From positions 1 to 50,381 of IMG/VR virus record IMGVR_UViG_3300008954_000077: a DNA stretch of 50,381 nucleotides. The stretch is one strand, 5' to 3'. The notes beneath the pieces were generated by a model, which was not told the origin of the DNA, searched no databases, and worked only from the letters and a program-made list of their open reading frames with translations. The stretch is from a virus. The position numbers were made by a program, and so were the translations under genes. This document shows positions 1,600 to 50,381 of this stretch, in pieces (positions within the stretch are counted from its first letter, which is position 1; each line of letters starts with the position of its first letter).

Positions 1600-1603
1600 T
1601 CAC
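1310..1603 (-). CDS. Doubtful small ORF coupled to the RHH gene
   Basis: A 97-aa frame begins with GTG overlapping the TGA of the RHH-like gene as GTGA, the pattern used for coupled genes elsewhere in this genome. The product is Arg/Ser/Gly-rich without recognisable motifs, and other frames are open over the same GC-rich stretch. It may be only a by-product of base composition. Confidence 0.25.
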   Translation of the reverse strand: MTSNHDDTRQRIESEAIEGTSTPRHATYSPRYPGSCGHQATRSSAVAKASHGNSGWPAACRASGREARASREERRRGGSHFGRPQIRTRPVPGSRDS

Positions 1604-1830
1604 TGGTCGCTGTCTCCCTGGTTTCTGTCGTCGTGTCGAGCCCAGTTGAAACCAGAGGCCATGTCGGCAAGTCGTCGCAGCCAGGTGCTACGGTCCAGGC
1701 CAACGGCGCGCGCGACCTTGTCGTAGTGTGCCCACCTGGCGTCATCGATGCGGATCGATCGCTGCTTGTCGAGATCGCGCGAGGCCTGGTCGCTGGGTGT
1801 TGTGCTGTCGTTGTTGGTTGATTCGCTCAT
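1600..1830 (-). CDS. Ribbon-helix-helix-like small DNA-binding protein, candidate regulator
   Basis: The 76-aa protein has the layout of an Arc/MetJ-type ribbon-helix-helix repressor. A short strand SIRIDDARW (about residues 25-33) is followed by helix YDKVARAVG, a turn, and helix STWLRRLADMA, with flexible polar tails on both sides. It is the first gene leftward of the divergent control region. A sigma70-like promoter at 1872-1901 would give a leader of about 35 nt. There is no strong Shine-Dalgarno sequence before the ATG at 1830. By context it could repress one or both divergent promoters by binding the palindromes at 1888-1944. Fold and role are inferred from pattern only. Confidence 0.6.
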   Translation of the reverse strand: MSESTNNDSTTPSDQASRDLDKQRSIRIDDARWAHYDKVARAVGLDRSTWLRRLADMASGFNWARHDDRNQGDSDQ

Positions 1831-1871: not shown

Positions 1872-1901
1872 ATTATCTTCCGATCTGTCTTGACCCGTCA
1901 A
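1872..1901 (-). promoter_or_regulatory. Leftward sigma70-like promoter
   Basis: On the minus strand TTGACG (plus-strand 1896-1901) and GATAAT (1872-1877) are separated by 18 bp. It would drive the RHH-like gene. Its -35 box directly abuts the -35 box of the rightward promoter and lies in the 1888-1903 palindrome. Confidence 0.5.
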
Positions 1902-1903
1902 GA
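1888..1903. promoter_or_regulatory. Palindromic candidate operator over both -35 boxes
   Basis: TCTTGAC-CC-GTCAAGA has perfect 7-bp arms and a 2-bp centre, and it contains the -35 hexamers of both divergent promoters. A dimeric repressor bound here would block both directions. No binding data exist; the assignment rests on symmetry and position. Confidence 0.55.
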
Positions 1904-1918
1904 TAGCAACGCTACGAT
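1890..1918 (+). promoter_or_regulatory. Rightward sigma70-like promoter of the plus-strand arm
   Basis: TTGACC at 1890-1895 and TACGAT at 1913-1918 are 17 bp apart. Predicted start is near 1925, giving a leader of about 64 nt to the first gene at 1989. The -10 element lies within the 1903-1944 inverted repeat and the -35 in the 1888-1903 palindrome, so both are placed for operator control. Confidence 0.5.
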
Positions 1919-1944
1919 CAGGTCCGATCGTAGCTTGTTGCTAT
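1903..1944. promoter_or_regulatory. Long interrupted palindrome at the rightward start site
   Basis: The left arm is ATAGCAAC followed by GCTACGATC, then a 6-nt loop AGGTCC. The right arm is GATCGTAGC, a TT insertion and GTTGCTAT. All 17 arm positions pair, with one 2-nt bulge. It covers the rightward -10 element and predicted transcription start. It may be an operator, an RNA hairpin at the 5' end of the transcript, or part of an origin. Confidence 0.6.
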
Positions 1945-1988
1945 GGTCGGCGGCACGTTGTAACGCAACTAGAACAAGGGGAAACGCG

Positions 1989-2402
1989 ATGGAGTCTAGG
2001 CCAGTTACTAAGTTGATCGGTCCTGGTGGAAAGGTAGTCAACGACTGCATGAAAGTCAGCAAGCAACACAAGAGCAAGCCAGGACAACAGAGCTTGTTCG
2101 CAGCTGCAGAGCGCGCGCGAGTGTGCCAGGACTGCGGCGGCATCGTTCCGGAAAGCGCTCCTGGTGAAGTGCTGTTGCTGCCGTGCGAGTGTGACCCGTT
2201 CGACTTGACTGAGTTCAAACCGGCCGACCCTCCGCGCGTCTCGCCTGCAGAGAGTGACGAGGACTTGTCACCATCAGACCGCCTCGCCAACTGGGCTTGG
2301 GGCTGGATGGTTGACTATGCGTGGGAGAACGTGTTGCGCAATCCTGAGCGCTCGCGATTGGCGTGGGCCATTACTGATCTCTTGGAAGATGACACGGAGT
2401 AA
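1989..2402 (+). CDS. Unknown protein with one Cys cluster, first gene of the plus-strand arm
   Basis: No family was recognised. From the ATG at 1989, preceded by AAGGGGAAACGCG, the product is 137 aa. The frame is open back to 1890, but that would run through the promoter and palindrome, so the shorter start is preferred. A CQDCGG motif with a later CECD could bind one metal ion; a Pro/Asp-rich linker follows, then a Trp-rich helical C-terminus (LANWAWGWMVDYAWENVL). As the first gene after the rightward promoter it is probably expressed early. Confidence 0.7.
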   Translation: MESRPVTKLIGPGGKVVNDCMKVSKQHKSKPGQQSLFAAAERARVCQDCGGIVPESAPGEVLLLPCECDPFDLTEFKPADPPRVSPAESDEDLSPSDRLANWAWGWMVDYAWENVLRNPERSRLAWAITDLLEDDTE

Positions 2403-2407
2403 AGACC

Positions 2408-2617
2408 ATGGCGAAAGAACGACACGAAAGCATCACAGCTGAGCGCATGTTAGACGCGATCGAGAACCGAAGCCTGGAGAACCTCGGCTTCTGCCGCGAG
2501 TGTGGCGACGAGCGCGGAGGATGCGAACCAGACGCGCGAAACTATCCCTGCGAGAACGACGCCTGCCGCGCGATGGCAGTCGATGGCGCTAAGGAATACT
2601 TATTCGAGATCGTTTGA
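2408..2617 (+). CDS. Small Cys-rich phage protein, unknown function
   Basis: The 69-aa protein has the pattern ITAERMLDAIENRSLENLGFC-x2-C, GCEPDAR.YPCENDAC and AVDGAKEYL. This resembles a widespread small family in phages and bacteria with a four-Cys metal site and no known function. It follows the previous gene by 5 bp; GGAGTAAAGACC precedes its ATG. Confidence 0.75.
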   Translation: MAKERHESITAERMLDAIENRSLENLGFCRECGDERGGCEPDARNYPCENDACRAMAVDGAKEYLFEIV

Positions 2618-2648
2618 CGCGGATCCTTTAACAAGCATTGGAAAGACC

Positions 2649-2861
2649 ATGACACAAAAGCGCAAACGAATCGACCTAATCCATGAGGGATTCTATTCCG
2701 ACGCGAGCAAGGCCAACACCTATCGCGTGATCGCTGGGCGCTCTGCTGGGATGGCTCGCGCCGTCCTGGTGGACGCAGACAACGACAAGGAAGCCAAGAC
2801 CAGGGGCGCGAATATGCTCAAGGTCAAACCGTCCGACATCGAAGCAACTCAAAAGGTGTAA
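2649..2861 (+). CDS. Hypothetical protein, 70 aa
   Basis: No family recognised. The ATG at 2649 is chosen because GGAAAGACC stands just before it; the same AAAGACCATG leader is found before the 2408 gene. The product is basic at the N-terminus (TQKRKRIDL) and predicted to be a small alpha/beta protein ending in a Lys-rich helix. The longer frame from 2502 would overlap the previous gene and has no good ribosome binding site. Confidence 0.6.
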   Translation: MTQKRKRIDLIHEGFYSDASKANTYRVIAGRSAGMARAVLVDADNDKEAKTRGANMLKVKPSDIEATQKV

Positions 2862-2863
2862 CC

Positions 2864-3028
2864 ATGGCGCGACGCAAGACAGCTGCCGAAATGTGCGAAT
2901 GGCTGCAATCGGTGTTGATTCCTGATTGCGACGAAAGCGGGCTTGATGGGTTTGTTGATACGCTCGAAGAGTGTTGCCACATCATGACCGAACAACGCGA
3001 ACGACTTGAAGCATTGGAAAACGAATGA
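2864..3028 (+). CDS. Hypothetical small helical protein, 54 aa
   Basis: A short frame starts at the ATG at 2864, 2 bp after the previous stop, preceded by AAAAGGTGTAACC. The product is acidic and helical with four Cys residues (C11, C22, C37, C38) and a charged C-terminal helix EQRERLEALENE. It ends in ATGA shared with the next gene, so it is part of a coupled series. Function unknown. Confidence 0.6.
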   Translation: MARRKTAAEMCEWLQSVLIPDCDESGLDGFVDTLEECCHIMTEQRERLEALENE

Positions 3029-3414
3029 CACACAATCGAACCATGCCGCGCGACCTATTCAACGAGGCCAAGCTTCTCAAGGGCTTGGGGCAACTCGCGC
3101 TGTTGATCCACGAAGCAGGCGGCGCGAGTCCGCTATTGCCTGCAAGCCTCCACCTGGACCACGACGGGGAGACGTTCGCCATTGAACAACACCCGCACAA
3201 CGGCTCTTTGTACGTGCCGTCAATCACTCTCTACGTTGGCCATGAAATGAAGGTTGTTGCGCTCGCGAGTGAGTACAACAGCAAAGACCCTTACCCGTTG
3301 ACGTTCGATGATCTTGACCGCGTGTTCTGCGATGACGGCCAGTTCAGCGCCGAGTTTGAAGACTACTGCAGGACGATCGACAACAAGACTTGGCATGAGG
3401 CGACGGGACTATGA
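3025..3414 (+). CDS. Hypothetical protein, 129 aa
   Basis: No family recognised. The start overlaps the previous stop by 4 bp (ATGA) and its own stop overlaps the next start the same way, so three genes are translationally coupled. The protein is soluble, acidic and mixed alpha/beta; no catalytic motif, membrane segment or metal cluster is visible. Confidence 0.65.
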   Translation: MTHNRTMPRDLFNEAKLLKGLGQLALLIHEAGGASPLLPASLHLDHDGETFAIEQHPHNGSLYVPSITLYVGHEMKVVALASEYNSKDPYPLTFDDLDRVFCDDGQFSAEFEDYCRTIDNKTWHEATGL

Positions 3415-4187
3415 AGAAACCACCGCCAACAATCACCGGATCCTTCGACAAAGGGCGCGAGGGATCCGTTGCAGTTAACTTCGGGCGCTCTGCTGGTGTT
3501 CTCTGTTGGGACGGCTGCAGGTTGAAGCATGCCGGATGTTACGCTGAAGACCTGGAGCGCATGCGGCCTAACTCGGCGCTGTCTCGCAAGCTTCTACGAA
3601 TGGAGAAGCTAACACCCGCCCAGATTTGCAACGCGGCACGCGCTGAGATCTTGGCGCGTGTCTCTGTTGGTTATTCGATTCCCTGGCTACGCTTCGCGGT
3701 CCTCGGCTCGATGCCATGGCCGCGCGATTGGCCAGGACAATCAATCAAGGCGCTGCGGTTGCTGTTGGAAGATTGCCGCGCGTTTGCTGTTCCGGTTCAC
3801 TTGCCTTGCGAGTCACCAGCTAAGGCCAAGTGGTATCAATCGAAAGTTGGCGATTTGTGCTGCGTCCGTCAGTCGATCCAAACGAACGGCGTAAGGGCTG
3901 CAGGTCCTTGCGCGTTCGTGGCTGGGATCGACATCGTAGGGGGCAACGCTGCCCGTGAGACGATCAACGGCGTACGCACAACGCGAACGAAGGCTAAACG
4001 GCTGCAGGCCGCGAGAGAGCTTGCAGCGAGGCGACAAGAGGCCACAGGACGCACAGCGCGTGTCTGTCCGGAGATCGCCTGGAAGTTTACGAAGAAGACC
4101 GAACCAAGCCCGCGCGTCAAGTGCGGCGCTGGTGGCTGCACTTGGTGTGCTGATGCTGATGTTGATGTTGTTTACCCAAAGACATAG
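3411..4187 (+). CDS. Cys-rich protein resembling phage Gp37/Gp68-type or DUF7227-type families
   Basis: The 258-aa protein has an N-terminal cluster C32-x3-C36-x6-C43-Y-A-E, similar in layout to the CxxxC...GCYAE motif of cysteine-rich phage families (DUF5131/Gp37-68 and DUF7227). Those families are suspected metal- or cluster-binding and their activity is not established. More Cys residues occur in the middle, and a C-terminal CGAGGCTWC near residue 240 completes the two-ended pattern. The N-terminal half is Trp/Pro-rich, and there is an Arg/Ala-rich helix around 195-225. Coupled by ATGA to the gene before it. A radical-SAM-like fold is possible but unproven: the classic CxxxCxxC is not present. 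Confidence 0.6.
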   Translation: MKKPPPTITGSFDKGREGSVAVNFGRSAGVLCWDGCRLKHAGCYAEDLERMRPNSALSRKLLRMEKLTPAQICNAARAEILARVSVGYSIPWLRFAVLGSMPWPRDWPGQSIKALRLLLEDCRAFAVPVHLPCESPAKAKWYQSKVGDLCCVRQSIQTNGVRAAGPCAFVAGIDIVGGNAARETINGVRTTRTKAKRLQAARELAARRQEATGRTARVCPEIAWKFTKKTEPSPRVKCGAGGCTWCADADVDVVYPKT

Positions 4188-4200
4188 GAGCGCGGAAACT

Positions 4201-4458
4201 ATGACTGGTGAAGGACTGCAGAAGCTTACGAACGATGAACTGATAGCGACCTTGCGAGCCAACCTGAAAGTGCATCGGCGCTGCTGGTGTCGCGCCCTGG
4301 TTTGGATGGGCTTGCATCCCGACGACGCAGGAAGCGCGATCGTTCTCGACCATGCCAACCCATGGAACGAACGGCTAAACGAGGCAGGCGCAGACGTGCA
4401 AGCCTGCAGGGGCGAACTAAGCCGGAGAGGATTCAAAAACATTTATGAGATCCAGTAG
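4201..4458 (+). CDS. Hypothetical protein, 85 aa
   Basis: Starts at the ATG at 4201 with GGAG upstream (TAGGAGCGCGGAAACT). The frame is open further upstream but that part lies in the previous gene in another frame. The product begins with a helical segment (LQKLTNDELIATLRANL), has a CWC motif and a Trp-containing helix. No known domain is recognisable. Confidence 0.6.
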   Translation: MTGEGLQKLTNDELIATLRANLKVHRRCWCRALVWMGLHPDDAGSAIVLDHANPWNERLNEAGADVQACRGELSRRGFKNIYEIQ

Positions 4459-4537
4459 CACGGACGCAGCTGAATTGTTCTGGACAGCTGTTGCGGTGAT
4501 CTTCATCGTGGCAGCTGTCGCCATCATTGGATGCTAA
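4445..4537 (+). CDS. Single-pass membrane peptide, 30 aa
   Basis: A tiny frame overlaps the end of the previous gene by 14 bp. After a short polar N-terminus (MRSSSTDAAE) it is one hydrophobic helix, LFWTAVAVIFIVAAVAIIG, ending in Cys. It lies directly before a strong terminator. It could be a membrane-active peptide of the superinfection-exclusion or holin type, or a chance frame; the clean helix and position favour a real gene. Confidence 0.5.
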   Translation: MRSSSTDAAELFWTAVAVIFIVAAVAIIGC

Positions 4538-4541
4538 CCAC

Positions 4542-4575
4542 GCGCGCCACCTGGTTACCAGGCGGCGCGCTTTTT
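4542..4575 (+). terminator. Strong intrinsic terminator in the plus arm
   Basis: GCGCGCC (4542-4548) and CCTGG (4550-4554) pair with CCAGG (4558-4562) and GGCGCGC (4564-4570) around a TTA loop, followed by TTTTT at 4571-4575. There is one A/C mismatch in the stem. It should end or attenuate transcripts before the second plus-strand gene group. Confidence 0.9.
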
Positions 4576-4634
4576 CCCCCGCCTGGCGAGCCGAGCCGGC
4601 CCCCAGGCCCGATAAGTCATAAGGAGTTCAGCTC

Positions 4635-5126
4635 TTGAACGACCAACATCACTGCGGCCAGGTCGGCATTGACCAGGTCAACGAACTACCCGAAACCGTC
4701 TTCGACATGGCGACCAGAGTTATGGAAACGCATGTCCCGCGTCTCATCGCTGAGCGCGGTTGCGATTGTCTTCAGTGCCAGGTTGAAGTTCGGATGGCGA
4801 TCGCCAGCGGACTTTTCCAAGCAGGTACAAACCAGTTTGGCCTAGCTCTCGGCTGCACAATGGAGACGAACGAACTACCACACGAAGCGGCCTGCGCTGC
4901 AGCTGGCCGACACGCCAACCAACTCATGCAGGTAATCGCCGAATTCTGCACGACTCAGCTGGGCGAATGGAACATGGTGAAGCTCCCCAGCACCAACGAC
5001 GACAGTACGTACGACGATTGGAAGCCACTCGAAGTTGAAGAGAACGACGCATGGGGCTGGACAATCGACACAATTGAACCCGACTTCTACTTTCCGGAGA
5101 GTGATGATGACGAGATACAAGATTGA
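4635..5126 (+). CDS. Unknown acidic protein with TTG start
   Basis: The 163-aa product has no recognised domain. The start is TTG at 4635, decided by a perfect AAGGAG at 4621-4626 placed 8 nt upstream; no ATG matches this site. A CDCLQC motif near residue 45 may bind metal, and the C-terminal 50 residues are very acidic (EVEENDAWGW, ESDDDEIQD). It sits after the terminator at 4575, so it needs read-through or its own promoter, which was not identified. Confidence 0.7.
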   Translation: MNDQHHCGQVGIDQVNELPETVFDMATRVMETHVPRLIAERGCDCLQCQVEVRMAIASGLFQAGTNQFGLALGCTMETNELPHEAACAAAGRHANQLMQVIAEFCTTQLGEWNMVKLPSTNDDSTYDDWKPLEVEENDAWGWTIDTIEPDFYFPESDDDEIQD

Positions 5127-5277
5127 ATGCAACAAATGCAAGCATGTCACGATCAGCAGATCCAACGATCCGCCAACATGCGAAAACTGCGGCGAAAACT
5201 GGAACGTACTTTGCCAACGTCTCAACAGAAGAAGCAACATCCAACAAGCATTGGAAGGTGAAGATGAAGACAACTAA
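5104..5277 (+). CDS. Small zinc-ribbon protein
   Basis: The 57-aa product (or 56 from the adjacent second ATG) has two Cys pairs, ECNKCKH near residue 10 and TCENCGENW near 30, typical of a rubredoxin-like zinc ribbon. CCGGAGAGTG precedes the ATGATG start. It overlaps the preceding gene by 23 bp and the recombinase gene by 14 bp. Role unknown. Confidence 0.65.
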   Translation: MMTRYKIECNKCKHVTISRSNDPPTCENCGENWNVLCQRLNRRSNIQQALEGEDEDN

Positions 5278-5989
5278 AGCCATCGTGTATTTGAGAGTGA
5301 GCCCACGCGGCCGCAAAGGAGACAAGTCCGGAGCGGCGATCGCTGAAGACAGCGCGGAGTCGCAAGGCTTCATCTGTTCCAAGCACTGCAATGAACGCGA
5401 GTACGACATCGAAGAAGTCTTCACTGATCTTGAGAAGTCAGGTGACGACGAGAATCGGGATGGCCTATGGGCGGCGGTACGAGCCGTCAAGCGTGGCTAC
5501 GTCCTGGTGGTTTGGAAGCGTGAACGCCTGGCACGTTCGATCTTCCTTGATGAAACCATCGGCCGCATGATCACCAGACAAGGTGGAACGATCGAAGCGG
5601 TAGAAGGCCAGCAAGAGGACACATCAGAAGGCGAGATGACTCGCAAGATCCTGGCTGTGGTCGCTGAGTACGAAAAGAAAGCAATGGCCGCACGCACTTC
5701 AGCTCAGATGAGAGCGAAGCAACGTGCAGGCCAACGCATGTCGCGTGCTGATCGTCCACCGTATGGGCAGAAGAGAGATCCCAACGACGACGCCAGGTTG
5801 ATTGATGATGTTCAAGCGCTCGAAGTGATTCAACACATCTTGCGACTAAGAGAAGAGGGAAAGACGTACCAACAAATCCAAGATGTCCTGACTGCTACGG
5901 CAACACCAGGTCCGACTGGGAATGGTTGGCATCGGGCGACTCTTCTTCGGATTGTTCGTCGCCACTCTCTTCAGGCGGCGGGCCAATAA
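5264..5989 (+). CDS. Serine recombinase (resolvase/invertase-type, small)
   Basis: The 241-aa protein begins KAIVYLRVSPRG, giving the catalytic Ser at residue 13 with Arg11. The second active-site segment reads WKRERLARS (residues 84-92), equal to the family DRLxR motif with Asp replaced by Glu. The long helix EMTRKILAVVAEYEKKAMAAR follows. The C-terminus, YQQIQDVL...WHRATLLRIVRR, is the helix-turn-helix/recombinase-type DNA contact seen in resolvases and short integrases. It lacks the large zinc and coiled-coil domains of phage integrases of 450 aa or more. It could serve for integration, dimer resolution or inversion. ATG at 5264 follows GAAGGTGAAG. Its last 95 bp overlap the convergent gene 5895-6404. 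Confidence 0.85.
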   Translation: MKTTKAIVYLRVSPRGRKGDKSGAAIAEDSAESQGFICSKHCNEREYDIEEVFTDLEKSGDDENRDGLWAAVRAVKRGYVLVVWKRERLARSIFLDETIGRMITRQGGTIEAVEGQQEDTSEGEMTRKILAVVAEYEKKAMAARTSAQMRAKQRAGQRMSRADRPPYGQKRDPNDDARLIDDVQALEVIQHILRLREEGKTYQQIQDVLTATATPGPTGNGWHRATLLRIVRRHSLQAAGQ

Positions 5990-6711: not shown

Positions 6712-6951
6712 ATCACCCCCCAAAGGAACGTGCGCTGTTCCGGTGTTCCGAGTGTTGCGCCTCATACAAGAAGAGAACCCTATGTACCACTAAACCACGA
6801 GCCCCATCTCTCTCTTCTCACCATACAAGGTAAAAAACACCGTGCAGCCGGAACAGTGCAGGCAGATCTTCTCTAAGTTCTTTACTACTAAGTAAGTAAG
6901 GTGTTCCGGTCTGTTCCGGAACAAACCCCCAGTGTTCCGGAACAACCCAAA
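6712..6951. promoter_or_regulatory. Intergenic region with TGTTCCGG repeat array
   Basis: This 240-bp gap between the primase-helicase gene and the two last minus-strand genes has two perfect 12-bp palindromes TGTTCCGGAACA at 6912-6923 and 6933-6944, 21 bp apart. Half-sites TGTTCCGG lie at 6902-6909 (10 bp before the first palindrome) and 6736-6743, with TGTTCCGA at 6744-6751 and the inverted half-site CCGGAACA at 6848-6855. The 10/21-bp spacing puts the sites on one helix face. Operator, iteron or recombination site are all possible. No gene is seen here. Confidence 0.65.
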
Positions 6952-14482: not shown

Positions 14483-15428
14483 CAACCACCCCCAATGCCA
14501 ATGCAAGACCATGTGTCAGGTCGAGATCGGTACGCAAGTACTTCATCGCTTTCTCTGGCTCTGTCAGATAGAGACGATGGAAGTCTTTGCCGCTGATCCC
14601 AGGCGTCTTACGACCAACGCCCATGAATTTACAAATCGTGTCGAGGTTGTGCTTGATGCCCTCGACTGGCGATTTGTACCACTGCTCACCAAGCTTCCAA
14701 ATCTGAAGCAGATCAACGAACATCGGAGCCAGGTTGGTCCAACGCCCCTTCTGTTCGTAGATCCAGTCAGGCACCTTGATACTGTGAGCCCAACTGCGAC
14801 GAATGCAGAAGGGAAGATCCCATCCGTTAGAGTTGAAGCCGATCATCTTGCTGCCACGCTTGATGCGGACAGCGTTGCACTGCGACCAAAGGCCGGCCAG
14901 CACAGCTGCTTCGTGATCGGTGTTGTCGCCTGGTCCTGCTTGGTCGATCCGATACGGATCCTTTTGACCAGGGTAGTAGTAACCGATCGCACAGACGCGG
15001 CCTGTGATGGGGGAAAGGGCCGCATCCTCAATGAACGACTCGAAAGCTTCAGCGAGAATTCGCTTCTTCTCTTTCGGCCAGTTCGCAGTCTTCTTCTCGT
15101 AAGCCTCTTTGTCAGCCAGGTGCTTGGCCTTCTTCTCGGCCAGAATCCTTTCTTTGGTTTCTGGCTTCTTCGCTCGGCCGTACTTGACAGCTGCTTCGTC
15201 AAAGTCGGCGAACGGTGGCGGATCGTCAGGCAGCTCCGGAGGAACAAAGAACTTGTCCAGGTTCTTTTTCGACCTTGGACCAGTTTCAATGTCCCACATT
15301 ATCGTGCCACTGAAATCCTCAACAGTCTTTGTCTCCGGTGGGGCCTCGTTCCGCTCTTCAGCCTCGCCGGGAACTGACTCGAAACCCATCGAGTCGAGAA
15401 GTTGTTCCAACGCATCATGATCACTCAA
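14475..15428 (-). CDS. DnaQ-like (DEDD) 3'-5' exonuclease
   Basis: The ~317-aa product carries the three exonuclease motifs: IMWDIETGP (Asp46, Glu48), MIGFNSNGWDLPFCIRRS (about 195-212, Asp in WDLPF) and YLRTDLDLTHGL (about 298). The second motif resembles the editing domain of family-B polymerases, but no polymerase domain follows. A Lys/Glu-rich helical insertion lies between motifs 1 and 2 (about 85-130). It may process ends for the RecT-like protein or proofread for a host polymerase. The start is TTG at 15428, chosen by AAGGAG 7 nt upstream; an in-frame GTG is at 15434. Confidence 0.85.
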   Translation of the reverse strand: MSDHDALEQLLDSMGFESVPGEAEERNEAPPETKTVEDFSGTIMWDIETGPRSKKNLDKFFVPPELPDDPPPFADFDEAAVKYGRAKKPETKERILAEKKAKHLADKEAYEKKTANWPKEKKRILAEAFESFIEDAALSPITGRVCAIGYYYPGQKDPYRIDQAGPGDNTDHEAAVLAGLWSQCNAVRIKRGSKMIGFNSNGWDLPFCIRRSWAHSIKVPDWIYEQKGRWTNLAPMFVDLLQIWKLGEQWYKSPVEGIKHNLDTICKFMGVGRKTPGISGKDFHRLYLTEPEKAMKYLRTDLDLTHGLALALGVVGG

Positions 15429-16921: not shown

Positions 16922-19900
16922 TTAATCTACGAATTGTCTCAAACGAAAGATTCGACGAGCCCTGGCTTCAGGTCCGGCCGCTCTTCTTCGTTGACTCCCC
17001 TTCCCAGTGATCTTGTTTGCGCGCCGAAGTACCAATGTCTTGGCCTTCTTCGCGTCGATGTCTAATCCATCGAGAACACTTTGGGCACGACGACGACTCT
17101 CGTTGTCTGATGGAGCTGTTGCAGTCCAGAGGCGCTTAGTCAGATACTCATCAACGATGTCGCGAACGTCTTGGGGCAGAGACTTCGCAGTTAAAGGGTT
17201 GGGATAGCGATCGAGGGCTGGCCGTCCCAACGCAAACCTGGCCAAGCCAAAGATGTACTTCTCATAGGCGAGTCGTTTGTAGCGATCCTTCTCTAATCGA
17301 ATCGGCTTTCGTAGCGCAGACATGATGTCCTTGTATTCATCCATCTCGCCGATCTGCGCTCGAAGCTTAGTAATGGACCTTTCTCGTTCGAGGAAGTCTT
17401 GTGCCTTTGAGGCGGGAATGCCTTTCGGCGGTTTCGCTTTGTCATCGCGGCGATCAATCACGGCGTCTGCCCACTTATCGAAGTCCTTGACCGATACTCC
17501 GAGATCTTTCAACTCGCGACGTGTTCTCATCCGTAGTGTGCCAGCGTCTTTCTGCAGCTGGTTCAGTTCCTGGTGAAAGTCATCAACATCACGAACGTAG
17601 TCTTTGTTGATCGTAATGCCACGCCATGGAGTCCGGAGCCCTTGAGTGGTAAGGCCACCTGACGTTGACTCCAAAAAGTGATCGACCTTCGCAGGTGACA
17701 TGCTAAACATGCGACCGATCCACTTGCTCATTTCGGTCGTGTGGTAGTTGTACTGTTCGGTGCGATCGACGTACTTCAAATGCTCCGGAACGATTTTGCG
17801 TTCGCGGAAGAAATCCCAGTTGCCCCAATTCTCAACAAGGGGTTTGACGATCGGGATCTCTGGGAATGACAGCCAACCACCGTAAGGGCTCTGCTTGTCG
17901 AACCACTCCCAAAGAACCTCGCCCGCCTTGACTTCGTTCTTTCCTCCCCACGCATTCAGAATGGCCTCAAAACCGATCTTGATAACGCCATACTCGCGCG
18001 GCACTGGGATGCGCAAGAACGGATTGCCTTGGTTGTCAGTAAACGACCAGAATCCCGCACGAAGCCAAGGCTTCTGGTTCTGATAGTCGTCATCGTCCTT
18101 GCGGGCCATCCAGTAAGCAAACGTCGCTCCGAACGTAAGAGCCATCCAGGTCGTAACGCGGCCAAGCTGGATGAGAGCTTTGTCGCCGTTGGGTGGACGG
18201 TACGTCGGATCAACTGTCTGCCGAACTGTGCGGAAGAATTTATCCTGTCCTTGGATCGCTGCATTAAAGAACGTGAAGTAAGCGTCCATCTTTTTGCCAA
18301 GCCGTCCGCTCCGCTTGAAGTTTGTGGTGACATCGTTAGCAGCATTGATGGCAAGCACAAGAGAATCACGGTCAGGATCCTCGAACTCTTTGGTGTCAAC
18401 ATTCCAGATTTCATACTCATTTTCCTCTGAATTCCACTTGCGAATGTAACCAGTTGATTCCATCGCGCGACTGAACTCAGCCAGGCGTGGACCAACCTCG
18501 AAAACAGTAACCAGCTCGCGAAGAGCATTCGTCGCCTTGCTGCCTTTGAGGCCGATCGCTGCGCCTGCAGCTGCCCCACCTGGTCCTGCAAGGGATCCAC
18601 CGATGACGCCACCAGCAACGCCGCCAAGTAGCGCCTTTACTGGATGCTTGAAGATGTCAAAGATGCCATGCTTGGCACGCTCGATCGGCGTGTACTCTCT
18701 GTTCTGATCAAGCGCTGAGTCAATCGACGAAATGTCGCCGCCCAACGTCGTAGACATCTTGCCGCCCATCTCTTCCCAAAAGTCGATGACGGCTTTGGCT
18801 CGCTTTGCACCAGGGATCTTGATGCCCCACCGATCAGCGACTTTGCCGATCTGATACAAGCCATAGAGTCCAATCCAGCGCATCGGATTCAACATCGAGT
18901 CAATATGGCCCTTGCTGAACTTGGACTGGAACTGGTAAGCACCCCAGTCGTAGAAGAGGTTCGTGCCCAAACTGAACGCGGTATTGATGCCGACCGCTCC
19001 CAGCTTCTTCAGCTTATTCACTGATCGGAAGAACGCGGTAACGCCGCTGGCCTGGTAACGGTCCATGCCATCGAGCGCGTCATAGATCATGGGATCCCAA
19101 CGGACCATGATCTTGTCACCGTTGTGAATGTACGTTTCGGTGTACTCGCTCGCGTCCGGTCGATAGTTCGGCCGATAGATCTGCAGCACTTGCATGATGT
19201 CCGGAACAGCTTCGGTTTCCTTCTCCAACTGCCTTAGCGCCTCTCTTCGATCTTCCTCTTCAGCGTCAGCCCAATCCTCGACAGTCGAGGGGCCAACGCC
19301 GAATCGCTTGAAGAGCCAGATCAGGTTGTTTGTCGAGATGTTGCCCGTGCGGAAGTAATGCACCACGCGGAACTCTGCTGCCATGTCCTCGTCAACGAAG
19401 CCACCGTCCACCAGGTCGGTCAAGATCTCTTCGACATTCAGTTGCGTTACGTCGGTCTTGGGATCGACGACTTCTGCGAAGTGTCCGAGTCCCGCTTCAC
19501 CACCAAAGGCGGGCACGACCATCGTCAAGATCTGTGTCTTGACTGCTTGCTTCAACGCGGCCGAGTAGAACTGTTGAGTACGCTTGAGCGCTGACACCAT
19601 CGGCCGGATGATTGGTGTAGCGCCACCCTTGCCGCGGCCGCGGACTGGCGATCGCGTGTTGAGCATTCCGGCTTCACCGCCAAACTGCGATCGTTTGTCC
19701 TTTGGAACACGATTCAACGGGATGTAATGTTCCCACTTGTCAATCATGTGCCTGGCAGAAGCAGCAGTCATCAGGCCAGTATCAACCATCAGCTGCAGCA
19801 AGCTGTTGTTGTACTCGGTGAAGATCTCGTGAGCCTCGGCGTACCGTTCCGCTCGCTTGGTATCGTTCTCGACCTGGCTAACGATATGGTTAGCTTCTGC

Positions 19901-22900
19901 ACGGTCCATGCCGGGATGATATTCACCAACAACGAACACCTTCTTCGGCCGTCCAGTCTTCTCGTCGATCGCCGGTTCACCTGTGTTCGGATCCAGAACC
20001 TTCTTCTTCGATCCACCTGAACCTTTGGACCAGGCTTCTTGCGCATGCTTGGCCCACATATAACGTTCCCAATCTTCCTCTTCACTGGGACGGATGATCT
20101 TGAACACGTCGTACAGCGCGGGACCAAAGATCGTCTCCTTGCCAGGCGTAACCGAGTGTACGCCGTTCTCAAGTGCGCGTTCTGAATGAGCAGGACCAGA
20201 GAGCGAATAGGCGCTCATCAGCTCGCCGCCTGTGATGCGGCCGGTCCATCCGAGTTGCCGCACCAGGCGTGACAGCTTGTTGACCGGGTGACCTTCGTCC
20301 ACCATCTGCGAGTAGAGCTTGTCAGACGAAGTCATAACCAAATCGTGCATCCGCTCCGCATTCGTCATATCGGCGGGTGGTGGGAAGTCTGTGGGGCCAT
20401 CACGCATGTCGGCTGACACTCGCGCGTCAGCTCCCTCGTTGCGCCACTCTTCAAACAGCTTGTCAGCTTTCTCGATCGAGTCCATAAACTTTGGAAGCTT
20501 CTTAGCGGCCGCTACGAGCTTTTGCTTCTCTTTGTCCAGAGTGACGGTCTTGGCTTTGTCGCGAAGTTTCTTCGCCCACCAGGTGGGGAACTTCCCGTTG
20601 AACCACTTGTGGAACTCCGGAGCCAGGTCGGCAGCATTCACACTACCAAGGGCTTCGTCGCCACCAGTCCAGCGATAGCGGAAGTACTCTGCGAATCCTT
20701 CGTACCATCGGAATCCGCTCACTGGGTCATGATTGTAGTCGAGCCTGGCCAGCTCGCGGTGGATCATCTTGAAGAGATCTGGATCCTCTTTCTCCAGCTC
20801 ATGCAAAGCATTTTCCATCTGAATCGCGTCGTCGATGTGGTGAGCTACCTCGTGAGAGACGACAGCCAGGTCACCAGCTAATTCACTGCGGACACGAATG
20901 ATCTTTTCAAGGATCCTCCAGAAGCCCGCAGCTCCACGGAGCTTGATCGGAATGCGGCCGCTGCGGACTTTGACACCAAAGTCCCGTTCGAGCCTGGCGA
21001 TGATGCTGTGCGGCGACAGCTCGCGTTTAGCACCACCCTCCGGAGCTTCCATTGCACGGGGGATGTGCCCGCGAGGATCCTTGCCTATGGGGGCAGCTCG
21101 AACCGTGGCTTCAGTCGCCTTCGGATCCAAGTCAAGCTCGTCGGGCAGATCGCGGCCGCGTCGTCGAAGGACGGTAGCTTTCTTCTTTTGCTTGCCAGCC
21201 TTCAACGCCAGGTCGCCTGACTTCTTCTTAAACTCTGGCTCTTCCGGTTCAGCCAGGCCAGCTCGCTCGCGTGCGGCCGCAACCAGCTCCTTGTCCGTCT
21301 CCCAGCGTTCCCAACGGTCTATTTCCTCGTTGAGATCTTGAAGACGTTCCTTAGCGAGTTGCGAATCAACGTCAACATCGGCGACTCTCTTGGCGTGTTC
21401 AGGTCTTTTCGCCACGCCCGCAATACTTGCTCGATCCGCTTTAAGTTCGGCGACGATTGAACGAACTGCTTTAGCAATTGCTTCCGCCTCTTGAATAGCC
21501 GAATCGTCGAATCCGAACAGATCTCCTTGCTTGGCCTTCTTTCCAGAATCAGGGAACTGCTGAAGCGCCTTGATGGTGTGTTTAATAAGCTCGGCTGCTT
21601 GTCCTTTTGCGGCCAGCTGCAGTCCAAGGTTCTGCCACTTCTCATTGTTGGGCGCTGATTCGCTTATTGCTCTGGCTTGTCCGTCTGAGATTCGCCCTGC
21701 CTTCCACGCGCTATACGTATCGTCTGTCGCAAAGCGCCCCACTGCGAAACCGATCTGCGCTTTAGCTTTCTGTAGTAAGCCTTCATGTTCCGCCTCTTCT
21801 TGTTTGATCGACGAGAATCTGAAGAAGTCGGCATGGTCTTCCACCGTTCCTTTGTCATCGGCAATGTTGAGCGCGGCTCCCATGTGCTTCGCGTCTTCAG
21901 CAGTGAAGCCATCAGCTTCGCGAACTACATGGACTTTGACTTCCTTCGTTCCCCTACTGGTCGCCAGGTCATGCCTGTGATGACCATTGACGACGAACAC
22001 CTCACCATCACGCGACTCCCATACTAGCAGATCGCCAGCTTTGGCAGGGTCAAAGTCGCCTTCTAAGGCATCCTCTTGAGTCACTCCGCGTTCGTTTGCC
22101 TCTCCCTTGAATTGAAACCTGGCCGGATCCACTTTGATCCGTTCCAGTGGCATCCAGCCAAAGTAGCTTGGACGGCCATCCGCCTGACGATGGACACGCA
22201 TATCAGCAACGTGTTCGGGGGCTACTCCTTGACTGAGATCTTCGACGGCTGGCTTGTCGACGCGAGCGTCCGGAGGGAAGAGCGAAGGGTCATCAGCCTC
22301 CCGCTTCTCGTTGGAAGCTCTGGCAGCGTCCCGCTTCTGCTGATCCTTGATGTCCTGCATCTCTTGATCAGTAAGCTTCTTCCTGGCGACGGGTGTTCGC
22401 TTGCCTGTCGCGCCTCTGCCCTTAGCTCCCAAGATCCGATCGACGTGAGCCTCAACACCACCCTGCTTGTCGATCGCGTCTGCTTGCGACGAGAAACCAC
22501 GAATGAAGTCAGTCATCGCTTGGGGGCTGGCTGTTGCTTTATCCGGAGCCCGACTGATCGCGTTCTTCAACCAGCCTTCCAAGTCCAATTGACCTGGTAC
22601 GCCTTTGAGTGGTCCAACTGGCGTTTCTGGCGTCTCTACCTTAGTGTAGCCGGCTACACTAACCCCCTCTCGTCTTTTCAGCTCTGCAGCCACTTCTTTC
22701 TGGATCGAATCGACTGTTGCCCAACGCGCAAGGTTGTCGGGTTTGGCGAGTACTTTTGAATTCTTCGTTGTCTCTAAAGCATCGTGCCACTTCTGCAAGT
22801 CCGCGGCCGGAAGGCTGTTCATCCAACCAACCATCTCATCTTCGTTCTCGAACTCAGGCAATCCCTTGGTGCCGTGAAGTGTCGGGAAGAACGAAGGATT

Positions 22901-24988
22901 CATCGCTCCGCTGAGTTGGGTCGCCAGTTCAAAATCTGGCTCACTAGATTCCCCTTCTTCGGCTTCTGCTTGAACTCCGGATCCGGTGTCGGCGGACACT
23001 GATCCTCCTGGCACATCGCTAGGAATTCCTCCTTGGTCTGTGGTGCTGGAATCCTCGGTTCCAGTTTGAACCACTTCCGAATCGCCTTCTTCAGCTTCTT
23101 GAACATCGAGATCTTCCTTCGGCAAGAGTGACTCGACCGCTTTACTTTGTTCCGCGGCCGCGGGGTCATGTACTTCCTCGTTCATCTTCTCAGCCATGCG
23201 CTGCGCGATACGATCGCCCAGCTCAACTCTCTCGCGTTGGCCGAATCCAAGATCCGGAAGCTCCAATGAGTCCCAACGACTTCGCGGAAATAGCGAGCCT
23301 GGTCCGTCAACTGGTTCTCGACCACCCCTGCCCTCTTTCTCAGCTGGACGCATCGCTTCTTTATTCGCCCAACCTGCAGCAAACTCTCTGGCTCGATCAG
23401 GATCGTCATTGATCCACTTCTCAATCATCGAGTCAGGATTCTCAAGTACTTTGTCTCGCAACTCGGCGACCGTCGCGCGACCCTTCTTCGCGAAGTCCAT
23501 TTCAGCAAGGCGAGTTTTGATCGCTTTGTGGCCGCGTCTCATCGACCAAGCACCAGGCACAGCGAATGCCATCGCCTCTGCCTTTAGCTGATCAGTGAAT
23601 TGTTCCCACGTTCGATCGCCGTGATCTTCGAGACCAGTTGCTTGGCGAGCGACTTCACCCAACCGCTCTTCGATAATCTCCGGAAGGATCCCATCGAAAC
23701 CAACCTTACGCATCGTGTTGGTGAAGGCTTTGGGATTAAGCCCCTTCTTCAGCCACCTGGCGACGATCGCCCGCTTGAGCCCCATCATGGCTCGCGAGTT
23801 AGAGACAACGGATCCGGTTCTCTCCGTACCCATCTCGATGATGCCATCCAAGAAGCCTGCAGGGAGATGCTTGAGCAAGCTCTGATCTTGGACCTTACCA
23901 GGGTGGAAGACTCCATCTTCGTTGATGCCTGACTCAAACATCGCATCGAGCGATCGCTGAGCGGTCGTCCGGAGAATGGTTTGCGGATTGGCCAGCGCTT
24001 GGAGTGTTGCACCTGGCAAAGCAGCTGTTACGTTCTTCGCAAATCCGACCGTTTGTTTAAGGAGCCTGTTCTTCAGCTTTTTCTCAAGAGCTTCAATGCC
24101 GATCTTCTTCAGCACAGCCATGCCGCCAGATTTACCAGCAGAGAAGGCACCACCAGTCGAGCCAAACTCGATCATGAAGCCTGGCATCGAAGCCATGATG
24201 TCGAGCGACTTACCAACCCATGACTTCTCAGCCATGTACTGCTGCTTGAGAGTGAACTCGGCGATCGTCTTTACGTCGTGATCGTCACCACCAGTGCGCT
24301 TGATGTTCTCAAGCGCACCTTCGATGTCGATCTTCATGTGCATGAACTGGCCGAATGCACCAACGAATGGAAGTCGATTCCCAACGTACTCGATCGGATC
24401 CTCACGCTCCATCAACGGGTGGCCTTTCCACTCTTTGATGAATTCGTGGATCTTTTGCGCTGTCTCGATCTGTCGCTCTTCGAGCTTATGTGCGGCTTGC
24501 TCTTGCGGTGACAGTGCATCCCACCACTCTTTCAAGTCTGCTTGCTGTTGCAGTACTTGGGCTCGCCTGGCTTCTCTGTTCTCTCGCTGCTCATTGTCCC
24601 AATTGCCCTTGAGGATGGCGTAGTCTTCCTCGATTGTTCGCTCTTCTCGACCAGCTGTGTCAAAGGATCCAATGCCCTCTGGAAGATTTCCTTTTTTGAA
24701 ACCTTCGATATAGAAATCCATGATCCCGTTCTCTTCGACAAACGCTTCCTCCGGATCTTGCACCGTTGGGATGTCGAAGTCGAATCCTTCCATCGGACCA
24801 GACGGACCAGGCGCAGCAGGTCCCGCGGCTGCGAGCGGGGCAGGTGCAACCGCAACCGCGGGGGATCCTGCTGCGAAGTTTGGATCAAGCTGAAAATCAC
24901 CAGGCGTCGGCATGGGGATGGGACCACCGAACTCCGGTTCCTGCAGGAACGGTGTTGGCATCTGGCCTGGCTGCGGAATTCGCGTCAA
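16922..24988 (-). CDS. Giant polyvalent internal virion protein with ParB-like and zinc-peptidase-like domains
   Basis: At 2688 aa this is the largest gene. The N-terminus is Pro/Ala-rich. Around residues 945-1040 there is a ParB/DdrB-like segment (PLERIKVDPARF...FVVNGHHRHDLA). Near 1375-1435 there is a gluzincin-like pair, VVSHEVAHHIDDAI and GFAEYFRYRW. A Gly/Ala-rich hydrophobic stretch (about 2110-2140) could insert into membrane. This mosaic matches the large polyvalent proteins of phages and plasmids that enter the cell with the DNA. The start is TTG at 24988, overlapping the previous stop as TTGA, with AGGGGA 7 nt upstream. Ejection into the host is inferred from family and from position after the tail genes. 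Confidence 0.8.
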   Translation of the reverse strand: MTRIPQPGQMPTPFLQEPEFGGPIPMPTPGDFQLDPNFAAGSPAVAVAPAPLAAAGPAAPGPSGPMEGFDFDIPTVQDPEEAFVEENGIMDFYIEGFKKGNLPEGIGSFDTAGREERTIEEDYAILKGNWDNEQRENREARRAQVLQQQADLKEWWDALSPQEQAAHKLEERQIETAQKIHEFIKEWKGHPLMEREDPIEYVGNRLPFVGAFGQFMHMKIDIEGALENIKRTGGDDHDVKTIAEFTLKQQYMAEKSWVGKSLDIMASMPGFMIEFGSTGGAFSAGKSGGMAVLKKIGIEALEKKLKNRLLKQTVGFAKNVTAALPGATLQALANPQTILRTTAQRSLDAMFESGINEDGVFHPGKVQDQSLLKHLPAGFLDGIIEMGTERTGSVVSNSRAMMGLKRAIVARWLKKGLNPKAFTNTMRKVGFDGILPEIIEERLGEVARQATGLEDHGDRTWEQFTDQLKAEAMAFAVPGAWSMRRGHKAIKTRLAEMDFAKKGRATVAELRDKVLENPDSMIEKWINDDPDRAREFAAGWANKEAMRPAEKEGRGGREPVDGPGSLFPRSRWDSLELPDLGFGQRERVELGDRIAQRMAEKMNEEVHDPAAAEQSKAVESLLPKEDLDVQEAEEGDSEVVQTGTEDSSTTDQGGIPSDVPGGSVSADTGSGVQAEAEEGESSEPDFELATQLSGAMNPSFFPTLHGTKGLPEFENEDEMVGWMNSLPAADLQKWHDALETTKNSKVLAKPDNLARWATVDSIQKEVAAELKRREGVSVAGYTKVETPETPVGPLKGVPGQLDLEGWLKNAISRAPDKATASPQAMTDFIRGFSSQADAIDKQGGVEAHVDRILGAKGRGATGKRTPVARKKLTDQEMQDIKDQQKRDAARASNEKREADDPSLFPPDARVDKPAVEDLSQGVAPEHVADMRVHRQADGRPSYFGWMPLERIKVDPARFQFKGEANERGVTQEDALEGDFDPAKAGDLLVWESRDGEVFVVNGHHRHDLATSRGTKEVKVHVVREADGFTAEDAKHMGAALNIADDKGTVEDHADFFRFSSIKQEEAEHEGLLQKAKAQIGFAVGRFATDDTYSAWKAGRISDGQARAISESAPNNEKWQNLGLQLAAKGQAAELIKHTIKALQQFPDSGKKAKQGDLFGFDDSAIQEAEAIAKAVRSIVAELKADRASIAGVAKRPEHAKRVADVDVDSQLAKERLQDLNEEIDRWERWETDKELVAAARERAGLAEPEEPEFKKKSGDLALKAGKQKKKATVLRRRGRDLPDELDLDPKATEATVRAAPIGKDPRGHIPRAMEAPEGGAKRELSPHSIIARLERDFGVKVRSGRIPIKLRGAAGFWRILEKIIRVRSELAGDLAVVSHEVAHHIDDAIQMENALHELEKEDPDLFKMIHRELARLDYNHDPVSGFRWYEGFAEYFRYRWTGGDEALGSVNAADLAPEFHKWFNGKFPTWWAKKLRDKAKTVTLDKEKQKLVAAAKKLPKFMDSIEKADKLFEEWRNEGADARVSADMRDGPTDFPPPADMTNAERMHDLVMTSSDKLYSQMVDEGHPVNKLSRLVRQLGWTGRITGGELMSAYSLSGPAHSERALENGVHSVTPGKETIFGPALYDVFKIIRPSEEEDWERYMWAKHAQEAWSKGSGGSKKKVLDPNTGEPAIDEKTGRPKKVFVVGEYHPGMDRAEANHIVSQVENDTKRAERYAEAHEIFTEYNNSLLQLMVDTGLMTAASARHMIDKWEHYIPLNRVPKDKRSQFGGEAGMLNTRSPVRGRGKGGATPIIRPMVSALKRTQQFYSAALKQAVKTQILTMVVPAFGGEAGLGHFAEVVDPKTDVTQLNVEEILTDLVDGGFVDEDMAAEFRVVHYFRTGNISTNNLIWLFKRFGVGPSTVEDWADAEEEDRREALRQLEKETEAVPDIMQVLQIYRPNYRPDASEYTETYIHNGDKIMVRWDPMIYDALDGMDRYQASGVTAFFRSVNKLKKLGAVGINTAFSLGTNLFYDWGAYQFQSKFSKGHIDSMLNPMRWIGLYGLYQIGKVADRWGIKIPGAKRAKAVIDFWEEMGGKMSTTLGGDISSIDSALDQNREYTPIERAKHGIFDIFKHPVKALLGGVAGGVIGGSLAGPGGAAAGAAIGLKGSKATNALRELVTVFEVGPRLAEFSRAMESTGYIRKWNSEENEYEIWNVDTKEFEDPDRDSLVLAINAANDVTTNFKRSGRLGKKMDAYFTFFNAAIQGQDKFFRTVRQTVDPTYRPPNGDKALIQLGRVTTWMALTFGATFAYWMARKDDDDYQNQKPWLRAGFWSFTDNQGNPFLRIPVPREYGVIKIGFEAILNAWGGKNEVKAGEVLWEWFDKQSPYGGWLSFPEIPIVKPLVENWGNWDFFRERKIVPEHLKYVDRTEQYNYHTTEMSKWIGRMFSMSPAKVDHFLESTSGGLTTQGLRTPWRGITINKDYVRDVDDFHQELNQLQKDAGTLRMRTRRELKDLGVSVKDFDKWADAVIDRRDDKAKPPKGIPASKAQDFLERERSITKLRAQIGEMDEYKDIMSALRKPIRLEKDRYKRLAYEKYIFGLARFALGRPALDRYPNPLTAKSLPQDVRDIVDEYLTKRLWTATAPSDNESRRRAQSVLDGLDIDAKKAKTLVLRRANKITGKGSQRRRAAGPEARARRIFRLRQFVD

Positions 24989-46367: not shown

Positions 46368-46406
46368 AAAAAAACACGCTGCGAACTAAAGACAGTCCGC
46401 AGCGTG
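46368..46406 (-). terminator. Intrinsic terminator upstream of the packaging genes
   Basis: Perfect 9-bp arms CACGCTGCG and CGCAGCGTG (plus 46375-46383 and 46398-46406) with an inner GACT/AGTT contact, followed on the minus strand by seven T residues (A tract 46368-46374). It separates the accessory genes from the terminase-portal-capsid block. Confidence 0.92.
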
Positions 46407-50058: not shown

Positions 50059-50381
50059 TTACACCTTCGGATATTTGGGAACCCAGTAGCCGTTGTCGTC
50101 TTGATGGAAGTCCCCAAACAACAACGGCTCTTGTTGGGACATCACTTGAGCGATCTGCGAGAAGACGTGCAAGATCTCTTCTTCGGCCGCTGGAGAGGCA
50201 CGCATAGCCATCACATGCCGCAGTGCCCGTGCGTTGCCGGTCCAAACGCCGCCCGTGCAAACGCCAAGCGGCACGATGCGACGGAACATCGACGTAAGCT
50301 TCTTCTTCTCGGCGAACTGCTTGCGGCCTTCAATGTCCCAGATCTTCTTGAGACGATCGTAGTGCATCCGGCAATCAGAAA
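50059..50381 (-). CDS. thyX: ThyX, C-terminal part (continues at position 633-1)
   Basis: This is the 3' part of the same thyX gene; its first 119 bases duplicate the left end. It contains the C-terminal ThyX signature GNARALRHVMAMRASPAAE, which contributes to the substrate and FAD pocket, and ends with PKYPKV. On the circle the gene runs 633 to 1 and then 50262 to 50059 (837 bp including the stop). The next gene downstream on the same strand is the macro-domain gene at 50003, after a gap of about 55 bp. Confidence 0.93.
   Translation of the reverse strand, partial: SDCRMHYDRLKKIWDIEGRKQFAEKKKLTSMFRRIVPLGVCTGGVWTGNARALRHVMAMRASPAAEEEILHVFSQIAQVMSQQEPLLFGDFHQDDNGYWVPKYPKV
50263..50381. repeat. 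Terminal direct repeat (right copy)
   Basis: Exact copy of bases 1-119. Removing one copy gives a circle of 50,262 bp and makes thyX complete. Confidence 0.95.

Follow-up and report, generated by a model that had tools for sequence, protein, structure and literature searches.

Predicted divergent promoter–operator region with putative ribbon-helix-helix autoregulation in a previously undescribed phage

Divergent promoters share a compact operator region in lambda-type immunity regions and in Tn3-type res regions. Where the regulator has the ribbon-helix-helix (RHH) fold, an intertwined dimer places a two-stranded sheet in the DNA major groove; in Arc, the contacts are made by Gln9, Asn11, and Arg13 of the strand QFNLR (Q-x-N-x-R). 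Autorepressors of the CopG/RHH type, among them plasmid CopG and the antitoxins VapB, TacA, and AtaR, are small proteins with an extended strand followed by two helices, and they are encoded near a palindromic site that covers their own promoter. Judged from its sequence layout, the closest known arrangement to the one analyzed here is the immI region of Salmonella phage P22 (mnt-arc-ant). As annotated, its promoters Pant (14793-14821, plus strand) and Pmnt (14798-14826, minus strand) overlap, with the operator Oarc (14798-14818) inside the pair and Omnt (14822-14844) beside it. The region comprises the antirepressor gene ant together with mnt and arc, which control ant expression (phage L genome paper, PMC8022706). 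Divergent Arc-family pairs are also annotated in several other phages.

The present study suggests, with somewhat better than even confidence, that the segment 1872-1944 of a viral record of 50,381 bases (the window, by which we mean this whole stretch of DNA) is a divergent promoter–operator with RHH autoregulation and the predicted control point of the phage. A preliminary description had proposed a divergent promoter–operator hub beside an RHH-like gene, and that proposal is supported by the promoter pair, by one strong symmetric element accompanied by a weaker one, and by the RHH-like character of the adjacent protein. Like immI, the hub has overlapping divergent promoters with one putative operator within the pair, another next to it that covers the rightward start region, and a candidate RHH repressor gene that leaves leftward. 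In P22, however, an RHH gene lies on each side, and the region includes an antirepressor and the sar antisense RNA, whereas a single RHH-like gene is found here; the right-hand gene here is of unassigned function; and immI lies inside a late operon (PMC8022706), whereas the hub occupies the only divergent junction of its genome. Thus, what the region has in common with immI, as far as sequence can tell, is overlapping divergent σ70-like promoters with symmetric sites inside, and what it lacks is the two opposed repressor genes and the antirepressor: PHROG, Pfam, and NCBIfam searches recognized no second repressor or antirepressor among the rightward genes, and neither the Arc Pfam search nor a profile of 13 Arc/Mnt proteins detected sequence homology to P22 Arc or Mnt. 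The region is therefore not a member of immI. It resembles lambda-type immunity and Tn3-type res regions in that divergent promoters share a compact operator region, but in contrast to the former no HTH repressor pair was recognized, and in contrast to the latter the serine recombinase gene lies far from the site.

The first 119 bases of the record are identical to the last 119, so that the record is probably a complete phage genome assembled as a circle. Its gene products include a terminase, a major-head-like protein, a primase/helicase, a RecD-like helicase, a RecT-like protein, the thymidylate synthase ThyX, and a serine recombinase. The ThyX gene (minus strand, about 50066-50262 joined to 1-633) runs across the record ends, which is consistent with a circular or end-redundant contig; an antisense plus-strand frame over 49993-50931 was rejected as spurious because ThyX occupies the same stretch on the minus strand. 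In a gene map based on simple coding potential, in which a handful of 35-50-aa calls, along with a single antisense call, were set aside as noise, plus-strand genes span 1989-5989 and minus-strand genes lie everywhere else. These directions make 1831-1988 the only divergent junction on the circular map, as had been claimed, and place a convergent junction near 6 kb. The first rightward gene (1989-2402, plus strand), preceded by an AAGGGG ribosome-binding site, encodes a Cys-containing protein of 137 aa that gave a weak zinc-ribbon match in a profile search. The serine recombinase (5264-5989) is only 241 aa long and combines a resolvase domain with a partial Recombinase domain; it is too small to be a typical large serine integrase. 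No other gene approaches the size of an open reading frame of 2688 aa on the minus strand (16922-24988). Near the point where the gene sets converge, and adjoining the end of the primase gene, seven GTTCCGG motifs of both orientations are clustered at 6737-6943, and the inverted repeat TTCCGGAACA...TGTTCCGGAA at 6914-6942 is part of this cluster; the motif occurs 23 times genome-wide against 7 copies expected, and the cluster looks like origin iterons or a protein-binding array. Rfam and tRNA scans of the window returned no matches.

Two σ70-like promoters lie at the divergent junction. They were found by a scan for the σ70 consensus, which may differ from that of the host. The leftward promoter (1872-1901, minus strand) combines a -35 box TTGACG (1901-1896) with a -10 box GATAAT (1877-1872) across 18 nt, a 10/12 match with a predicted start at ~1865; the rightward promoter (1890-1918, plus strand) combines TTGACC (1890-1895) with TACGAT (1913-1918) across 17 nt, a 9/12 match with a predicted start at ~1925. 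The promoters face outward and their -35 boxes adjoin. Promoter matches of this kind number 20 in the genome (10 per strand), and they form only one divergent pair within 100 bp. When the 158-bp intergenic region was shuffled, sites on both strands appeared in 0.36% of shuffles and nearly adjoining -35 boxes in 0.045%, so that the divergent pair described previously is borne out.

An imperfect palindrome at 1885-1906, a putative operator, covers both -35 boxes. Its core, TCTTGAC-CC-GTCAAGA at 1888-1903, consists of two perfect 7-bp arms around a CC center that is not self-complementary and had been mistaken for a perfect palindrome; with the arms extended to 1885-1906, 9 of 10 positions are matched. 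A palindrome of this size arises in about 2% of shuffles of a region of this size, which makes it much less striking than the repeat at 1903-1944, and it cannot be counted as evidence separate from the promoter pair, because TTGAC..GTCAA produces both -35 boxes at once. The exact 16-bp palindrome has seven matches in IMG/VR, three of them in long open frames, and these are few enough to be chance.

The repeat at 1903-1944, a putative second operator, has a score of 15, by which it outranks every other inverted repeat in the genome (none above 11) and every one produced by 1000 shuffles (none above 10). It has 17 pairs between arms at 1903-1919 and 1926-1944, a TT bulge at 1935-1936, and a z score of -7.1 when folded as single-stranded DNA, and it overlaps both the rightward -10 box (1913-1918) and the predicted start (~1925). 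The earlier account of 17 paired arm positions over these elements is thus upheld, with none of the 1000 shuffles matching the repeat. Its arms have no second copy in the genome with up to two mismatches. The combination of a GC-rich stem with a directly following T tract, as in an intrinsic terminator, is not seen here: the repeat is followed by GGTCGGCGG on the plus strand and by CTTGACGGG on the minus strand. A terminator was ruled out on this ground, the evident terminators elsewhere in the genome having T tracts of at least five. Because there is no T tract, and because neither transcript would hold both arms if the predicted starts are right, the repeat is more probably a DNA operator than a terminator. 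The right arm and its downstream neighbor (1925-1949, plus strand) could in addition form a 5′-terminal stem-loop of the rightward mRNA; this hairpin has 10 bp, -13.7 kcal/mol, and z -5.8, with no equal in 1000 shuffles, and it may have an RNA role on top of the role of the repeat in DNA.

The first leftward gene (1600-1830, minus strand) encodes a protein of 76 aa that is a candidate autorepressor. By sequence, its similarity to known repressors is marginal, with PHROG matches to an "Arc-like repressor" (E 0.099) and a "transcriptional repressor" (E 0.13); when these two families were searched against this genome alone, the 76-aa gene was the sole match (E 0.005). The Pfam profiles RHH_1 and Arc (PF03869) did not match the protein, which thus falls outside the Arc family as defined by PF03869, and an NCBIfam search with it returned no matches. 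Our own profile of 13 Arc/Mnt proteins gave it no significant score; the alignment with that profile, not significant by score, sets SIRIDDARWAHYDKVARAVG on the Arc strand and first helix, and in this register the strand QRSIR aligns with Arc QFNLR and reads as an Arc-like Q-x-[NS]-x-R. A full-length single-sequence structure model was poor (pLDDT 70), with a long helix and the strand not shown. A model of the core, residues 20-62, has an extended segment and helices at H11-24 and H28-42 (pLDDT 80), the extended strand and two helices within a core of ~45 residues that characterize the RHH superfamily. In a VIA comparison, the 13 best matches of this core model were all RHH proteins, with names including CopG, VapB12, MatP, TacA, AtaR, AmrZ, MazE, and NikR; their Z scores of 4.1-5.3 stand above unrelated rows and are low in absolute terms. 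Foldseek gave no significant E-values for either the core or the full-length model. The protein thus resembles the CopG/RHH autorepressors in its small size, its predicted strand and helices, its best structural matches, and the closeness of its gene to a palindrome that covers the predicted promoter of that gene, but differs from them in having no RHH_1 Pfam match and no toxin partner identified. Collectively, the core model, the 13 best structural matches, and the QRSIR strand support the earlier claim that the leftward gene encodes an RHH-like protein. It is probably an RHH protein, and it is fairly likely to regulate the 1872-1944 region.

In the proposed mechanism, host σ70-type RNA polymerase would start leftward at ~1865 and read through the RHH gene, DUF3310, ThyX, and additional genes as far as an intrinsic terminator at 46406-46375 (minus strand; 14-bp stem, T7 tail), the probable end of this transcript on a circular genome. 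Rightward transcription from ~1925 would cover small early-type genes and stop at a terminator at 4542-4570 (plus strand), where a GC-rich hairpin with a TTTTT tail closes the first rightward operon. One repressor bound on the -35 palindrome would shut both promoters together; blocking by a protein at 1903-1944 would be confined to the rightward promoter, providing extra specific control. One site or both would most likely be bound by the 76-aa protein. However, the two palindromes are unlike in sequence, so that one protein need not bind both and binding of both is doubtful. The simplest circuit would combine negative autoregulation of the RHH gene with a delayed shut-off of the rightward genes, and a timing role of this kind, with early activity and later shut-off, is possible. 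The hub had also been said to separate two transcription arms. Opposite gene sets do diverge there, but the arms are not single units: strong intrinsic terminators subdivide both, including two with T tracts in the leftward set (15534-15502 and 12558-12522, minus strand), so that a separation of whole arms was overstated. With the rightward transcript ending at 4570 and the leftward one probably at 46375, the hub alone would not drive the structural and replication genes without antitermination. A further promoter-like sequence, TTGACA/18/TACCAT, is present on the minus strand at 15630-15601, upstream of one of these terminators.

Several other readings of the same features were weighed. The promoters and operators may be real while the palindromes are bound by a host repressor or by the Cys-containing 137-aa protein, the 76-aa protein acting elsewhere. 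The two palindromes differ in sequence, which makes at least two binders plausible, the RHH match of the 76-aa protein is marginal by sequence, and the 137-aa protein offers an alternative through its weak zinc-ribbon match. Against this, small DNA-binding proteins often bind the promoter region beside their own gene, and the larger repeat is without close copies in the genome, as expected of a local autoregulatory site; we therefore consider this reading unlikely, though it is the most serious of the alternatives. The large repeat may instead act in RNA: its right half would form a stem-loop at the 5′ end of the rightward mRNA, protecting or regulating that transcript, and the longer symmetry would be a by-product. 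This reading would accommodate the hairpin at 1925-1949 and the fact that both departures from perfect complementarity are G-U compatible. It is improbable, however, since the left arm at 1903-1919 lies upstream of the predicted start, which leaves its perfect 8+9 match unexplained by an RNA function, and no Rfam family was matched. A slightly smaller chance still is given to a compound arrangement in which the repeat is a DNA operator whose right half also forms the 5′ stem-loop of the mRNA under control, and in which the two promoters are regulated asymmetrically by one RHH protein belonging to a new subfamily.

The symmetric sites could instead be a recombination site of a serine recombinase or part of a replication origin. 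The genome does encode such a recombinase, the half sites of the palindrome, 10 bp each, flank a 2-bp center, a form known for serine recombinase sites, and the GC skew changes sign near 2 kb. Yet the recombinase gene is 3.3 kb away, the skew merely tracks gene direction, the GTTCCGG cluster beside the primase gene is a better candidate for an origin with iterons, and the overlap with both promoters favors transcriptional control, so that we give this reading little credence. Least probable of all is the bistable switch suggested in the preliminary description, in which two states of transcription would exclude each other. Touching divergent promoters with two putative operators do recall P22 immI, but only one candidate repressor is present, no opposing regulator that could act in mutual repression was recognized among the rightward genes, and a circuit in which both promoters are simply autorepressed should be monostable. 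The evidence thus remains best accommodated by a divergent promoter–operator under RHH autoregulation.

The phage is previously undescribed, and the collections searched held no informative relatives. A blastn search of the region against phages found none holding the intergenic region; scans of IMG/VR with the primase, the RHH protein, the terminase, and sequence patterns, and likewise a genome-contig search and tblastn of the RHH and 137-aa proteins, were empty or at chance level. The one exception among the IMG/VR scans was IMGVR_UViG_3300007760_001100, a 9.75-kb contig (1-9750) of essentially the same phage, with 100% identity in the matched proteins, which begins inside the RHH gene and does not include the hub. 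The type of hub is already known, an ordinary phage control region best known from P22, and it does not represent a new class of switch. For a phage lineage that is nearly without relatives in the collections searched, the analysis narrows the likely master control point to a small, testable fragment of ~75 bases, and it would extend the examples of RHH-linked divergent control by one from beyond the enterobacterial P22 group.
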